From positions 1 through 43,853 of the forward strand of contig JAAHFP010000048.1 in assembly GCA_010672925.1 (NCBI GenBank): a stretch of 43,853 nt of DNA, written 5' to 3'. Positions within the stretch are counted from its first letter, which is position 1. Each line of letters begins with the position of its first letter. The notes under the pieces are model-generated. The model was not told the DNA's origin. It saw only the letters and a program-made list of their open reading frames with translations, and searched no databases. This document shows, piece by piece, positions 9,593 through 18,100 of this stretch. This stretch comes from Symploca sp. SIO1C2. GTDB taxonomy: Bacteria > Cyanobacteriota > Cyanobacteriia > Cyanobacteriales > Coleofasciculaceae. The position numbers were made by a program, and so were the translations under genes.

Positions 9593-12500
9593 TCAATCCA
9601 TACCATGAGCAACAAAACCAGCCCAATAGAAAGGATGGTCAAAGGGGAAATCCTTTTTACCCAAAGACTGCAAACTCTGTTGCTGTCCCTCTAATTTCTT
9701 CGCAATGGTCAACCACTTATGAGACGCTGCCTGATCTCCTTCAGCTTGGGCTTGTTGCTTAGCAGTATTAACCTCCTCTAACTTTTGTAGCAGATGTGAG
9801 TTTAACTGAGCCTGATAGTTTTGGGTAAAATCCTCTCCTGTTAACTTGCGGAGTTTAATTTGCCCTTGCTGTAGTGCCTGGGAACGGCTCATCCCTGACT
9901 CGCGGTTCTTATAGTAAAATATAGCTAATAAAGCACTAGCCAAATCCTCTACTGACCACTGGGTACTAACTACACTCCTGGCTCCAGCACAGAGAAAGCC
10001 TGTAGCGAGAGTAAGCAAGTCATCGGTAATTTCGGTAACAGTGAAATTAACCTCGCAAGCGCAGGCAAACACTTCCGAGAGATTGGGCATACGCCAGCTA
10101 GGAGTTAAGAGTTGACCTAAGGTAAGGGAACCATCTCCTAAACTTAACTGGGATTCCAAGGGCTGGAAAGGATTAGATTTAGCATGATGGCTAGAGTGGA
10201 GAATCTGCACTTGCTGAGCTAACTTTTGGTAGGACTTGACTGTAGCCTTGCGTCCCTGCAAGCGTTGCTCAGAAGGAACTTGATAAATTTGAGCTAGGGT
10301 TTCGCATTCAAAATTGGTAAAAGGCAGATCTTCCGTAGCATCTTCAACTATACCCATTTGCTGACCTTCGATGGGTGGGCGTTGGTGGCAATAGTGGAGG
10401 ATTTGGCAACTGGGAATCAGACGAATACGAAAGCGATCGCCCAGGTAAGTTATTTTGGTAACATGTTTAGTTGGAGAAGATTTGGAAGATTTGCTGTTAA
10501 AAGCTAAACCGCGAGTCTGGTCAATAACAATCCTTTCTTCCTTTTCTGCCTTATCTTCTTCCTTCCCTCCTGCCTCCTGCCCCCTGCCTCCTGCCTTATC
10601 TTCTTCCTTCCCTTCTGCCTTCTGCCCTCTGCCATCTGCCTTCATCGGCAATGCAGCAAAAGGAATCTGATGCAAAGCTAAATGAGGTACAATAATCAAC
10701 TCCTCAATTCCCTCAAGATATTGTCCCACCAGCTTCTCCAACTGCAAGCGCTCAGCAAGTTCCTGGAGAAAATCCCCCATCTTATCCTTCCATTTACTGT
10801 TTGTTCTAACATAAGGTCTGAACCAATTATCCAAGATCCAATCCTGCAACTTACCCAACCCTTGCCTCTCACAAGTCAAAACCTGAGTCTTGCGATCCTT
10901 AAACAGGGCAAAAATATAGGTATCCTCCTTAGTTGTATAGAAACTGAGCAAAGCAGTAGTTGGCTCCTCAATTAACTGCTGTATTTGCTCCCAATGCAGA
11001 TGCTCCACCTGAACTTGTCCTGCCAAAACAGGATCATAACGGCGCAGTTGTTGCCAAACTTGCTGTTTTTGTGCCTCTAATGCCTGGATTTCTTCCTCGT
11101 ATGCTGATAAATCCTCCCTAGTCAAGGATTGATGGGCTTGCTTCACTCCAGTTCCCAATGACATTTTTTCATGGCTACTTCCTGCTAAGACTGGGATAGC
11201 TCCAAAACGCATAAGATTGATACGCTGTTGTATTTTCTCGTAATCCTGCAAATGCTGTTCTACCTCTGGAGCAATGTTTCCCCCTTGGTAGAGTTCATTA
11301 CTGGCCATCATATCTACCAAGCGTTGAGCACGAGAACGTTCAGTATATTCTACTGCTTTCTTGATCTCTCCTAAATTGAGGCAAGCTTGTACTATCTTGT
11401 TATATACGTTAATAGAATTGGCAATAATCTCCTGACGGCGCTCCTCATCAATTGCCCAATTCCGGCTTTGTTCTACTGCTTGGATAGCTAGGGCATAACC
11501 TTGGATAGCTAGTTGCCAATTGTTATTTTCCAGGGCAAGGTTGCCTAAATTACGAGCTGTTTGCAGGCAGTCGAGAGGGAAGTTTTCTGGAGTACGGATT
11601 TGTAGGGCATTGTGATAAGCAGCAATGGATTGTTCGAGATTCTCTACTCTCTCCCCTTTGATTCTGTTACAATAGGCATGGCCGAGACTATTTTGAATCA
11701 TTGCCCAATCTTGCGGAAATGCTGACTTGGTAGTGATTTGTAGGGCATTTCTAAAAGCAGCAATGGATTGTTCGAGATTATCTGCTCTCTCCCCTTTGAT
11801 TCTCTCGGAGTAAGCAATGCCGAGATTGTGTTGAGTCATTGCCCAATCTTGAGGAAATGCTGACTTGGTATAGATTTGTAGGGCATTCTTATGAGCAGCA
11901 ATGGATTGTTCGAGATTATCTGCTCTCTCCCCTTTGATTCTCTCGGAGTAAGCAATGCCGAGATTGTTTTGAGTGGATGCCCAATCTTGGGGAAATGCTG
12001 ACTTGGTAGTGATTTGTAGGGCATGACTATAAACAGCAATGGCTTGTTCAAGATTCTCTACTCTTTTCCCTTTGATTCTGTAGAAGTAAGCAATGCCGAG
12101 ATTGTTTTGAGTGGATGCCCAATTTTGGGGAAATGCTGACTTGGTAGTGATTTGTAGGGCATGACTATAAACAGCAATGGCTTGTTCAAGATTCTCTACT
12201 CTTTCCCCTTTGATTCTGTAGAAGTAAGCAATGCCGAGATTGTTTTGAGTCATTGCCCAATCTTGAGGAAATGCTGACTTGGTACGAATTTGTAGGGCAT
12301 TGTGATAAGCAGCAATAGCACATTCAAGATTATCTGCTCTCTCCCCTTTGATTCTGTACAAGTAAGCAATGCCGAGATTGTTTTGAGTCATTGCCCAATC
12401 TTGAGGAAATGCTGACTTGGTACGAATTTGTAGGGCATTGTGATAAGCAGCAATAGCACATTCAAGATTATCTGCTCTCTCCCCTTTGATTCTGTACAAG

Positions 12501-13237
12501 TAAGCAATGCCGAGATTGTTTTGAGTGGCTGCCCAATCTTGAGGAAATGCTGATTTGGCACGGATTTGTAGGGCATTGCTATAAGCAGCAATAGCAAGTT
12601 CGAGATTATTTGCTCTTTCCCCTTTGATTCTCTCGGAGTAAGCATTGCCGAGATTGTTTTGAGTCATTGCCCAATCTTGGGGAAATTTCTCCAAAGTAAA
12701 AACTGTAGCAATGACTTCATAAGCAGCAATGGCGATTTCTAGGTTACTAGCTATGTTGCCCAGAGGAAACTGTTGAATCAACTTGCTAAACTTGAAAAGG
12801 ACTAGAACAAAATATTCTGCTTCTTTTGGCTGAAGTTGAGGCAGGGTTTCTTTTGCCCAAAATTGCAGTATCTGCCCTAAGTTTTCATCTAGCTTGTCGA
12901 GGTTCTCTTGCAATAGCGGGTAAACTGACTGAGGGCTAGAGTCAGTTGCTATTACCTGCAAGATAGACTGTAGGAACTTGAGATACTCTACTGAAGAAAC
13001 TAAGGTGGAGGAAATCCCGATCATCTCTCCTAATTCCCCTGCCAAGTTTTGCAACCAATTGGCAGTATTTTCATTTCCTGCTTCTACCATTTGTGCTGCT
13101 ACTGCTTCCATTATCTGCACCAACTCCCCATTGACTAACTCTAGGTTAGTCTGTAGTATTTCCTCTTCCTGTCCATCGGGGCATTGCAGCAGTTGTTGAA
13201 TAAGATTGAAATAAACTTCAAGTCGTTGTTCATCCAT
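9593..13237 (-). CDS. TPR-CHAT protease-like protein
   Basis: A 1214-residue cytoplasmic protein. Residues 1-175 form a helical N-terminal region. Residues 175 to about 560 are tandem TPR-like units of exactly 46 residues, each carrying FPQDWAxTQNNLGxAY and RIKGERxxNLExAIAAY; eight are nearly identical, then TPR-like helices continue. The C-terminal CHAT domain (caspase HetF-associated with TPRs) has the predicted catalytic pair: His in LHSSHHAK (about 1017) and Cys in VFACACEVN (about 1060). CHAT proteins are caspase-like peptidases used in bacterial death and defence systems. Residues about 864-900 are a Gly/Lys/Glu-rich insert encoded by a dispersed heptamer repeat, yet the frame stays open. 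Its likely operon partner, the DUF4384-like gene, lies upstream but is separated by a mobile element at 13283-13582. Confidence 0.9.
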   Translation of the reverse strand: MDEQRLEVYFNLIQQLLQCPDGQEEEILQTNLELVNGELVQIMEAVAAQMVEAGNENTANWLQNLAGELGEMIGISSTLVSSVEYLKFLQSILQVIATDSSPQSVYPLLQENLDKLDENLGQILQFWAKETLPQLQPKEAEYFVLVLFKFSKLIQQFPLGNIASNLEIAIAAYEVIATVFTLEKFPQDWAMTQNNLGNAYSERIKGERANNLELAIAAYSNALQIRAKSAFPQDWAATQNNLGIAYLYRIKGERADNLECAIAAYHNALQIRTKSAFPQDWAMTQNNLGIAYLYRIKGERADNLECAIAAYHNALQIRTKSAFPQDWAMTQNNLGIAYFYRIKGERVENLEQAIAVYSHALQITTKSAFPQNWASTQNNLGIAYFYRIKGKRVENLEQAIAVYSHALQITTKSAFPQDWASTQNNLGIAYSERIKGERADNLEQSIAAHKNALQIYTKSAFPQDWAMTQHNLGIAYSERIKGERADNLEQSIAAFRNALQITTKSAFPQDWAMIQNSLGHAYCNRIKGERVENLEQSIAAYHNALQIRTPENFPLDCLQTARNLGNLALENNNWQLAIQGYALAIQAVEQSRNWAIDEERRQEIIANSINVYNKIVQACLNLGEIKKAVEYTERSRAQRLVDMMASNELYQGGNIAPEVEQHLQDYEKIQQRINLMRFGAIPVLAGSSHEKMSLGTGVKQAHQSLTREDLSAYEEEIQALEAQKQQVWQQLRRYDPVLAGQVQVEHLHWEQIQQLIEEPTTALLSFYTTKEDTYIFALFKDRKTQVLTCERQGLGKLQDWILDNWFRPYVRTNSKWKDKMGDFLQELAERLQLEKLVGQYLEGIEELIIVPHLALHQIPFAALPMKADGRGQKAEGKEEDKAGGRGQEAGGKEEDKAEKEERIVIDQTRGLAFNSKSSKSSPTKHVTKITYLGDRFRIRLIPSCQILHYCHQRPPIEGQQMGIVEDATEDLPFTNFECETLAQIYQVPSEQRLQGRKATVKSYQKLAQQVQILHSSHHAKSNPFQPLESQLSLGDGSLTLGQLLTPSWRMPNLSEVFACACEVNFTVTEITDDLLTLATGFLCAGARSVVSTQWSVEDLASALLAIFYYKNRESGMSRSQALQQGQIKLRKLTGEDFTQNYQAQLNSHLLQKLEEVNTAKQQAQAEGDQAASHKWLTIAKKLEGQQQSLQSLGKKDFPFDHPFYWAGFVAHGMD
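10535..10645 (-). repeat. heptamer repeat inserted in frame in the CHAT gene
   Basis: On the plus strand this reads CTGCCTCCTGCCCCCTGCC, CTTATCTTCTTCCTTCCCTTC and CTTCTGCCCTCTGCCATCTG in two rounds. It is the same family as the intergenic blocks at 7845, 22120, 27846 and 29418. It encodes ADGRGQKAEGKEEDKAGGRG-type low-complexity residues within the CHAT region. Confidence 0.85.
11650..12700 (-). repeat. 138-bp tandem coding repeats (TPR units)
   Basis: The TPR region repeats at the DNA level with a period of 138 bp (46 codons). The units at 12236-12373 and 12374-12511 are identical base for base. Neighbouring units differ mainly in the helix-A residues (YLYR, YFYR, YSER) and in the helix before ALQI. 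Confidence 0.9.
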
Positions 13238-15075: not shown

Positions 15076-15113
15076 AGTTCAAAGTCCCCCAGAATTGGGG
15101 GATTTAGGGGGCA
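15076..15113 (+). repeat. dispersed GGGGGATTTAGGGGG repeat
   Basis: TTCAAAGTCCCCCAGAATTG is followed by GGGGATTTAGGGGGC. Close copies lie at 16137-16170 (same orientation) and 15555-15603 (reverse, diverged), and a related arm at 14603-14638. Here it overlaps the 3' end of the DUF559 gene. Confidence 0.8.
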
Positions 15114-15480: not shown

Positions 15481-15688
15481 TTTCTCAACTCTTCTCTAAA
15501 CATCATGCAAGATAATTTATTCCCTAACTTTTCCAATTTTTTCCCTCGCCATTTGCCCCCCTAACCCCCCAATTCTGGGGGGAACCGGAGTTCAAAGTAC
15601 CCTAAAATTGGTGAATGTAGAATTTAGCCCATACTACGCGATCGCACTACTTTATTCCACCAACCCCTCCAACAACAAAGCCACTTGT

Positions 15689-16042
15689 TCAGGTGCGGGA
15701 AGTTGATTCTGCATTATGACTCCAGCCAATTTCTGCCACCAATGGTGACAGTTTTTCCTTGGCATAGTAAGAAATGTAGAATTCTCGCATTCTCCAGATA
15801 TTCCGAACCGAAAAGCCACTGATACCTGGAAACTCCCCTTGTAAGTCTGTTGCCAGTTGTTCGACTACTGACTTCCCCCAGGTTTCTCCCTGTTGACGGG
15901 TCACAATTAACTGCCCAATATCCCAATAAAGACTAATTAATTCCTTGTTGACTGCTTTGAGGGATTGGTACTGCGCCTCACGAATGCGCTGCTTGACTTC
16001 TACTAGTAGTTTCCGATACTTCCCTGAATCCAGATCACTCAT
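15689..16042 (-). pseudogene. DUF1016 (YhcG-type) nuclease remnant with internal deletion
   Basis: About 117 residues carrying only the N-terminal DUF1016 helical domain (LISLYWDIGQLIVTRQ, WGKSVVEQLATDLQGEFPG, SVRNIWRMREFY, LSPLVAEIGWSHN). Intact YhcG-like proteins run to roughly 330-350 residues, with a PD-(D/E)xK nuclease domain after WSHN. Here the frame shifts right after WSHN and stops. The next frame then reads QLPAPEQVALLLEGL, which looks like the C-terminal tail of such proteins. So the nuclease domain seems to have been lost by an internal deletion. ATG 16042 was chosen; a GTG four codons upstream lies inside a dispersed repeat. Confidence 0.72.
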
Positions 16043-16339
16043 TTCCGTATGCACGACCCTTTAGCTTGTCATCATTGCCTAAAACCTACCACCTAATACC
16101 AAATCCGGTTCTCGTATCAGAGTAAAAATATATAATTCAAAGTCCCCCAGAATTGGGGGATTTAGGGGGCTTTCAGCAGCTGAGGTATAATTACGCAATA
16201 TTTCGCCACCAGCATCCGCTGCGCTTTAGCAAAGCATCCCGAAGGGTATACACACCTTACGATAGGTACTACTTTTTCATTTTAAGGAGAGCTTTAAACC
16301 GAATTGATCAATTATCAATTATCCATTATCACCTAACAC
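16043..16339. repeat. intergenic repeat cluster
   Basis: 16052-16080 is GCACGACCCTTTAGCTTGTC plus ATCATTGCC, a dispersed repeat also at 29327-29357 and, reversed, at 39800-39827. A TACCAAATCCGGTT repeat at about 16098 recurs inside mobile element copy A. The GGGGGATTTAGGGGG repeat covers 16137-16170. No gene is supported. Confidence 0.6.
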
Positions 16340-18100
16340 CTAAGACAACACAGTAGGACAAACAACCCGACAACCAAAGTGACAATACCTACAATCCGGT
16401 GCACGGTGGTAGCGATAGGCACTACGACAGTACTTAGAATAGCTGTACCACGAACCTCCACGGAGCACCCGACAATCATTGTCATTATCATCTAACCAAA
16501 CACTGCCATCTGTAGGCGCACCTTTATAATTCTCATGCCAGTAGTCAGCGCACCACTCGAAGACATTACCGTGCATGTCATACAAACCAAAAGCATTGAC
16601 AACGGGAAAACTACCAACAGCAGTCGTCTGCATACCGTTATAGTTGGCTAACCCAGGAGTAATAGTTTTACCAAAGTGAAACGGAGTAATTGTACCAGCG
16701 CGACAGGCATATTCCCATTCCGCTTCACTGGGTAGTCGGTAATCTTTTCCCGTTTCCTTAGACAATCTGGCACAAAATTCTACCGCATCATACCAAGATA
16801 CCTGCTCCACTGGTAGGTCTGCCCCTTTAAATTGGGATGGATTAGGGGTAAGTTCTTGATTAATTTGAGGAAGGGCTGCTACAGCTTGCCATTGAGCCTG
16901 GGTAACTGGATATTTGCTCATGCAAAATGAAGCTACAGCTACTCTGTGCCAGGGACTTTCCGCATCATATCGCTCCTTTTCCGTATCTGGGGAACCCATC
17001 TGGCAGTTACCGGGAGGAATAACCACCATCTCTAAGCTGACTCCTTGACCCAAATCTTCAGTAAAATACTGAGCTTTACCTCGACTACGCTTAATTTCTT
17101 GACCTTTAGGATTCACGGTTACGACATCAAAGGCCACCACCGGTAATTCTGGGGAGGAAGGCAATACTACTGACTTCTGAAAAATCCTTTGGAAAGCTTT
17201 AATCACATCCATATCTGAACCAGCCGCTGCCACATTTACCCGCATCCACAGCTGGGTTGCTAGTTGCCGATGGCCTTCAGCTTCTGCCCTAAAAGCATCC
17301 ATTTTCAGGGTTTCTAGATCTTTGGGGGTAGCGTATTGGGGAAAGAGAATCAGGTGAGACTGAACCAATGGTTCTGCAATAGCGTAAGGTGTTTGTGGAG
17401 GCTTCTGATACTGATGACTAATTTCTGGTACTCGATGGTGCAAATATTGCTCCAAACGCTCTACCGTAGCACAATTACCCTCTCCCTGAATCCTTAACGC
17501 CTCTAACAGGGAATAAGTGAAGGAACCATGCTGGAGAGATTCTATCTCGTAGGCTCTTTCGCTAGGACTACAGGAGTACATCGTCACTACCCCTTGCTGT
17601 CGTTCCTTGCCAATACCCTCTTCTGCTGTATTTCTCTGATTACGGCAAGCATCTAACAGTAGTATCACATTATCAGCTCCAAACTGCCGCAGCCTTTGGG
17701 TTAGATAATTAATGCTTAATGCTGTCTTTGTGATCTCACTAGGGTTAGTATCCGAGAGTAACAAATATTCATGACCATCATAACGCAGACCATGACCGAC
17801 AAAAAAGAACCAGAGATTGTCCCCTGGTTCCAGTAAAGGTTTCTCAAACTGCGATAGGGAAGTGCTGTTGCAAGCGGAGCGCAAAAAATGCCGCAGGTTC
17901 CCAAAAGTAGGCTGGGTGGGAATTGGTGTCGTATTCGTGGGAATTGGTGGGGAATCTTCGGTAAACAGAAAAACTCGCTCAAAGTCCGCCTCTTGTTGAA
18001 AAAAATCCCCCATACTCTGGGCATCCCTCTTCCCATAAATTGGGGACTGAAAATGAGTGTAGTTATTAATACCAATTATGATTGCCCAGTTTTTATCCAT
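16340..18100 (-). CDS. caspase-like peptidase fused to FGE/C-type lectin domain, DGR-type variable C-terminus
   Basis: A 586-residue protein. Residues 1-250 are a C14 caspase-like domain starting DKNWAIIIGINNY, with predicted catalytic His103 (FFFVGHGLRYDG) and Cys152 (ILLLDACRNQR). Residues about 340-586 are a formylglycine-generating-enzyme/sulfatase-modifying domain, a C-type lectin fold, with IPPGNCQMGS, VEQVSWYDAVEFC, RLPSEAEWEYACRAG, YDMHGNVFEWCADYW and LRGGSW. In the last 40 residues the positions that are usually Asn in cyanobacterial relatives are Tyr, His, Cys, Ser, Lys or Arg. This is the signature of adenine-directed DGR mutagenesis. Inferred role: ligand recognition by a hypervariable lectin domain coupled to a death protease. 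It lies in the same island as the CHAT gene. Confidence 0.9.
   Translation of the reverse strand: MDKNWAIIIGINNYTHFQSPIYGKRDAQSMGDFFQQEADFERVFLFTEDSPPIPTNTTPIPTQPTFGNLRHFLRSACNSTSLSQFEKPLLEPGDNLWFFFVGHGLRYDGHEYLLLSDTNPSEITKTALSINYLTQRLRQFGADNVILLLDACRNQRNTAEEGIGKERQQGVVTMYSCSPSERAYEIESLQHGSFTYSLLEALRIQGEGNCATVERLEQYLHHRVPEISHQYQKPPQTPYAIAEPLVQSHLILFPQYATPKDLETLKMDAFRAEAEGHRQLATQLWMRVNVAAAGSDMDVIKAFQRIFQKSVVLPSSPELPVVAFDVVTVNPKGQEIKRSRGKAQYFTEDLGQGVSLEMVVIPPGNCQMGSPDTEKERYDAESPWHRVAVASFCMSKYPVTQAQWQAVAALPQINQELTPNPSQFKGADLPVEQVSWYDAVEFCARLSKETGKDYRLPSEAEWEYACRAGTITPFHFGKTITPGLANYNGMQTTAVGSFPVVNAFGLYDMHGNVFEWCADYWHENYKGAPTDGSVWLDDNDNDCRVLRGGSWYSYSKYCRSAYRYHRAPDCRYCHFGCRVVCPTVLS
16358..16470 (-). 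other. candidate DGR variable region (VR)
   Basis: Codons for residues 544-581 of the caspase-FGE protein. Fixed blocks (RVLRGGSW, CRSA, APD, RVV) alternate with positions reading Y S Y S K Y, then Y.YHR, then C.YCHF. Most of these codons (TAC, AGC, TAT, AAG, CAC, CGT, TGT) can be reached from AAC or AAT by changing only adenines. No template repeat and no reverse transcriptase (no Y/F-x-DD polymerase ORF) was recognised in this window, so diversification would have to act from elsewhere. Confidence 0.68.

Follow-up and report, generated by a model that had tools for sequence, protein, structure and literature searches.

Does the lectin face of the caspase-like protein encoded at 16340..18100 (minus strand) still vary under the action of a diversity-generating retroelement (DGR), or has it become fixed? 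The gene lies in a window of 43,853 nucleotides, the whole stretch of DNA analysed here, and a sequence-only reading had proposed that its C-terminal tail has been diversified, possibly by a DGR acting in trans. With a probability of about 0.8, we conclude that the tail represents an old variable region (VR) of the DGR type that is no longer diversified and is kept by purifying selection.

Domain architecture and the C-terminal tail

The open reading frame and its translation give a protein of 586 residues (P0001) with two Pfam domains: a caspase domain, Peptidase_C14 (residues 4–233; 17402..18091, minus strand; E 6e-16), and an FGE-sulfatase domain of the C-type-lectin fold (residues 357–580; 16361..17032, minus strand; E 1.5e-54). 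Sequence matches of the latter among solved chains include PvdO (5hha) and Treponema denticola variable protein 1 (2y3c). The focal protein has both the domain match and the His/Cys pair of the Peptidase_C14 class. Across 21 aligned proteins, His103 (in GHG) is invariant and Cys152 (in DACRN) is kept in at least 90%; going by the motifs, we take these two residues to be the catalytic dyad.

As in the cyanobacterial CLec family of DGR targets, the FGE-type lectin domain has a VR scaffold near its C-terminus, and the protein ends in RVLRGGSWYSYSKYCRSAYRYHRAPDCRYCHFGCRVVC followed by five residues. The DGR-type VR comprises 38 codons (residues 544–581; 16358..16471, minus strand) and was assigned by comparison with DGR templates, orthologue conservation and dN/dS. 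Its variable residues are probably surface-exposed, judging from the lectin fold. The fixed blocks RVLRGGSW, CRSA, APD and RVV that had drawn attention to the tail are all present. The accompanying claim, that the codons between them can be reached from AAC/AAT by adenine-only changes, stands in part: 12 of the 13 codons at template-Asn sites end in C or T, but AAG, which had been listed among them, is unreachable from AAC/AAT by such changes, as is a GCA found at one template-Asn site.

The asparagine runs that the sequence-only reading had placed at these positions in relatives exist, and they are template repeats. We scanned the contigs of 84,980 species, which gave 399 stretches that encode a relative, and used the best 80 of these (79 distinct loci). 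With the phage BPP-1 reverse transcriptase (RT) as query, a DGR-type RT was found in the same locus in 10 of the 79, two of the ten from one organism, Fischerella sp. PCC 9431; because the flanks extended at most 10 kb, and often less, 10/79 is a lower bound. Nine of the ten RT-bearing loci contain a template repeat, with 60-base stretches in which every mismatch falls at a template A, and no template repeat was found in the tenth (L063). When VRs of standard length were set against the template of their own locus (nine comparisons), there were no non-A mismatches in eight and two in one. FGE-lectin tails of this kind are thus DGR targets in relatives, in agreement with the sequence-only reading.

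The first-ranked relative is one of the Fischerella sp. PCC 9431 loci (L045). Its protein is matched over residues 1–581, is 58% identical to the focal protein in the best segment and has the same tail layout. Unlike the focal gene, it is adjoined by a template and an RT, its mismatches are confined to A, and the RT carries LPIGNLTSQ. Somatically variable specificity is plausible for this homologue, in which target, template and RT occur together. A search across the order, with three candidates scored in most genomes, gave matches at 1e-160 in 9 of 388 genomes, and those outside the genus are 54–58% identical to the focal protein. Compared with nine templates, the focal VR itself has 15–21 mismatches at A and 19–25 at other bases, the latter mostly in third positions, indicating that it is old and not freshly templated.

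Reverse transcriptase and template searches

The earlier observation that neither an RT nor a template lies near the gene holds for the window as a whole. The search that had been suggested for the rest of the genome, a template beside a DGR RT, returned neither from the draft assembly of the host (G000; 245 contigs, 97.9% complete). RVT_1 (PF00078) has seven matches in this genome, and the TSQ motif of DGR RTs is present in none of them. We take the seven to be either of the group II intron type or proteins with QGISLGCPLSP in place of the TSQ motif. Searches of the same genome with the BPP-1 RT and the Fischerella RT had no match outside this set (best E within it 4.3e-12 and 8.0e-16, respectively). 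As a positive control, the Fischerella RT matched 54 of 291 genomes across the order at 1e-40 or better (E 2.7e-42 to 3.5e-192). In the family Coleofasciculaceae it matched none of 20 genomes at 1e-40, the host and both congeners included, and 16 of these 20 are at least 90% complete.

Template searches were likewise negative. A DNA search of the host genome with the tail produced 16 matches, which were to the query tail, to two paralogous tails and to a repeat lying between genes, with no template among the 40 of 220 first-look candidates that were scored. With a template peptide as query, all 17 candidates were scored and proved to be 13 tails of the family and four weak matches in other frames (E 0.6–3), again with no template. 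No Asn-rich tail was found in the genome either; the extracted tails contain at most five Asn per 34–35 residues. A template scan of the type applied to the window recovers the template in a control locus. Because the genome is a draft and only 40 of the 220 DNA candidates were scored, an RT or a template may nevertheless have been missed.

The RTs on contigs C193 and C215 of the host genome were considered as hidden DGRs and rejected, since the TSQ motif is absent and neither contig has lectin genes of the family. A PF05635 protein lies 3 kb from the C193 RT. A scan around the C193 RT gave 911 template/VR-like pairs. Runs of N account for many of these, and the best pairs come from repeats that lie outside the RT. 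Around the C215 RT there are two pairs; one of them is mismatched at 5 of 70 bases, in each case at an A, and these mismatches are bunched at the edge of a repeat. We judged both sets to be interspersed repeats. Separately, the RT-like frames L235 (9450–10238) and L236 (7608–8462) have the motif QGISLGCPLSPLMG and an N-terminus that is apparently cut; one of the two was tested and matches phrog_1423.

Conservation and codon usage of the tail in the genus

The congener G002 has an orthologue that is 77% identical to the focal protein (75.9% over 581 residues), and the conservation of the focal VR is measured on this one pair. Within the VR, 34 of 38 residues are the same, as are 12 of the 13 at template-Asn sites, where the sequence-only reading had expected variation, and the changes are mostly synonymous (pS 0.36, pN 0.056, dN/dS 0.118). 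Elsewhere in the pair dN/dS is 0.272 for the caspase part, 0.188 for that part of the lectin domain which precedes the VR, and 0.215 for the whole protein. When 38-codon windows are moved along the protein, 10 of 539 reach the 34 matches of the VR, whose own window is among the ten. In a set of 57 distinct tails of the same length, which includes a few templates, we compared 17 variable sites, a broader selection than the 13 template-Asn ones. The orthologue agrees with the focal tail at 15 of them, the other 55 tails at 2–8. For this one congener orthologue, the VR is nearly identical and does not differ mainly at template adenines.

Since no RT or template was found, the family gave 0/20, and the orthologue's VR is kept with a dN/dS of 0.12, the focal tail is very probably not diversified at present. 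The rival account is that a DGR elsewhere in the genome, absent from the draft assembly or overlooked by our searches, still rewrites the tail in trans. Remote DGR targets in cyanobacteria are described in the excerpted text of Vallota-Eastman 2020 (PMC7517822), and the number of contigs and the share of DNA candidates scored leave room for such an element. Set against this are the congener's nearly identical VR with its synonymous divergence, the family-wide RT result, the identity of all 17 peptide candidates and the non-A mismatches to every template compared. We therefore rejected an active trans-acting DGR on the RT, template and orthologue evidence, and regard one that was missed as very improbable. 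What had been named beforehand as speaking against somatically variable specificity, namely a genome with no template or DGR RT and orthologues with the same residues at the supposed variable positions, is what we found as far as the searches reach, with one orthologue that has 12 of 13 of those residues, and such variability is unlikely here. Of the proposal that the lectin face has been diversified, the DGR-type VR on a caspase–FGE protein and a DGR-like codon signature in the genus are retained, and present-day diversification is not.

That codon signature bears on whether the tail was ever made by a DGR. Ordinary mutation can leave any base at the third position of fourfold codons at template-Asn sites, whereas derivation from an AAC/AAT template requires C or T there. 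We counted standard 34-residue tails only, from 8 of the 13 family genes of the host, 12 tails of congener G001 and 3 of G002. In DGR-adjacent targets, 48 of 55 such codons end in C/T compared with 463 of 880 upstream, and in relatives with no RT in the locus the figures are 86/99 and 946/1752. The three genomes of the genus, the host included, gave 58/67 versus 776/1304 upstream (p 4e-6). Taken singly, the host is marginal (15/18 versus 289/499, p 0.048), G001 is clear of chance (34/39, p 0.0009) and G002 is not significant (9/10, p 0.09); these p-values are optimistic because the rows are related by descent. Stratifying the genus excess by amino acid and leaving out the orthologue gave an odds ratio of 4.8 (p 6.5e-7), and leucine CTN codons end in C/T at 17 of 17 template-Asn sites versus 33 of 88 upstream. 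Fixed codons of the same VRs also lean towards C/T (167/240, versus 57/65 at variable sites; p 0.003), and some of the excess may therefore be a property of the region.

The residues K, Q, E, M and W cannot be produced from AAC/AAT. They occupy 8 of 104 template-Asn sites in the host, 10 of 156 in G001 and 2 of 39 in G002, compared with 0 of 182 in DGR-adjacent VRs. The genus count, given as 18/195 with the focal tail and its orthologue included, argues against an ongoing or purely AAY origin. The VR tails of the genus bear the codon trace of AAC/AAT-template mutagenesis, somewhat worn, as DGR-adjacent targets do. As a set they depart from chance; for the focal tail taken alone the codon evidence is weak, because just two fourfold codons, CGT and GCA, lie at its template-Asn sites.

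One could instead suppose that the tail was never a DGR product and that point mutation and selection made the binding loops of an ordinary FGE/lectin C-terminus diverge. One of the two informative codons of the focal tail (GCA) is contrary to a DGR origin, Tyr, His and Cys codons necessarily end in C/T, and the fixed codons share the lean. The excess at template-Asn sites of the genus is nonetheless independent of amino acid and as large as in DGR-adjacent targets, and there are DGR targets among the full-length homologues; we consider a purely mutational origin improbable. That the focal tail itself was once rewritten by a DGR is what these comparisons with its relatives suggest.

Paralogues, possible origin and genomic setting

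Tails of this kind occur in 13 genes of the host genome (at E 1e-20 there are 16 match rows, three genes being split in two), and the congeners G001 and G002 have many family genes too. We compared VRs between reciprocal-best pairs defined by the lectin domain without the VR, some genes entering more than one pair. A sequence pattern supplied 31 distinct tails, of which 30 had sufficient flank; it does not pick up the C169 gene or some of the genes of G001 and G002. The pairs fall into two classes. In 4 of 13, namely the focal pair plus three from a single other family, the VR is conserved (identity 0.88–0.97, pN 0.01–0.06, flank pS 0.41–0.49). In the other 9 it is changed (identity 0.41–0.68, pN 0.23–0.37, flank pS 0.36–0.72). 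A second lectin tail (GNIPGNCR...), kept in all three congeners with a VR pN of 0.01–0.06 (L031 on G000:C157, L188 on G002:C470 and L222 on G001:C817), is another frozen VR.

The two classes fit a loss of the DGR near the split of the genus, with some tails already fixed; because 9 of 13 pairs have diverged VRs, a DGR may have remained active for longer at other loci. Part of the division could be due to hidden paralogy or gene conversion. In line with this division, we tentatively suggest that the genus retains a set of lectin receptors that a mutator, since lost, once generated and that are now frozen under selection: what was an adaptive repertoire would have become a fixed, innate-like one. 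A variant that overlaps with our preferred reading is that the gene arrived by horizontal transfer, already diversified and fixed, from a DGR-bearing cyanobacterium, and that the genus never had a DGR. The orthologue's neighbourhood shows no synteny in the 10.8 kb read, DGR RTs occur in 54/291 genomes of the order and in 0/20 of the family, and excerpts of PMC7517822 report horizontal exchange of DGR elements. Many transfers would be needed, though, to account for 13 family genes here and many in the congeners, and we think this variant somewhat unlikely.

Returning to an old VR held by selection, its history would begin in an ancestor or donor lineage in which AAC/AAT codons of the lectin binding face were targeted and rewritten by a cyanobacterial DGR. 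With RT and template apparently absent from the genus and its family, one useful binding face, fused to a caspase-like protease, would have been held by purifying selection. The protein would most likely be an intracellular sensor of a fixed kind: a ligand bound by the lectin face would switch on the protease, with a regulated-death or signalling response as the output. Ligand binding, protease activation and the response are all predictions.

Several elements of this account have precedents. The available portions of PMC7517822 describe orthocaspase- and kinase-lectin DGR targets and dispersed paralogues, among them all3226, a dispersed paralogue with remnant TR-VR homology and no RT nearby, and suggest that the machinery may be removed after a good variant has been selected. 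The cyanobacterial orthocaspase-CLec variable proteins in these portions resemble the focal protein in having an N-terminal orthocaspase-like domain, a C-terminal lectin domain and a VR at the 3' end. Their genomes hold DGRs. In the focal case, by contrast, the genome searches found neither RT nor template, the sampled family yielded no RT, and two species share a conserved VR. DGR-diversified putative antigen sensors have been proposed in multicellular bacteria, according to excerpts of Dore 2024 (PMC10907252); they too couple a lectin-fold VR to protease or death-type effectors, but most of their VRs are reported there as diversified in nature, whereas the focal VR looks fixed. Purifying selection against DGR diversification is treated in the excerpted part of PMC8144416. 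Judging by titles and the starts of abstracts, with partial coverage of the literature, we found no paper on frozen VRs in DGR-less genera. If our reading is right, a DGR target that outlives its mutator can have its binding face held by selection, neither lost nor randomised, and the C/T third bases at former AAC/AAT sites offer a way to spot former DGR targets in genomes that lack DGRs.

The surroundings of the gene have features of their own. A near-palindromic intergenic repeat, CCCCCAGAATTGGGGGATTTAGGGGG, occurs three times with at most 3 mismatches (15086–15111, 15556–15581 and 16144–16169) within 1.3 kb downstream of the gene, and none arose in 100 shuffles. A short DUF1016_N protein of 121 residues (15689–16054, minus strand) matches PADLOC models of the candidate system PDC-S02; it corresponds to the N-terminal part only of the longer models and is perhaps a truncated nuclease. 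About 3 kb from the caspase–lectin gene, a TPR-CHAT protein of 1214 residues (9593–13237, minus strand) represents another type of caspase-like protease.
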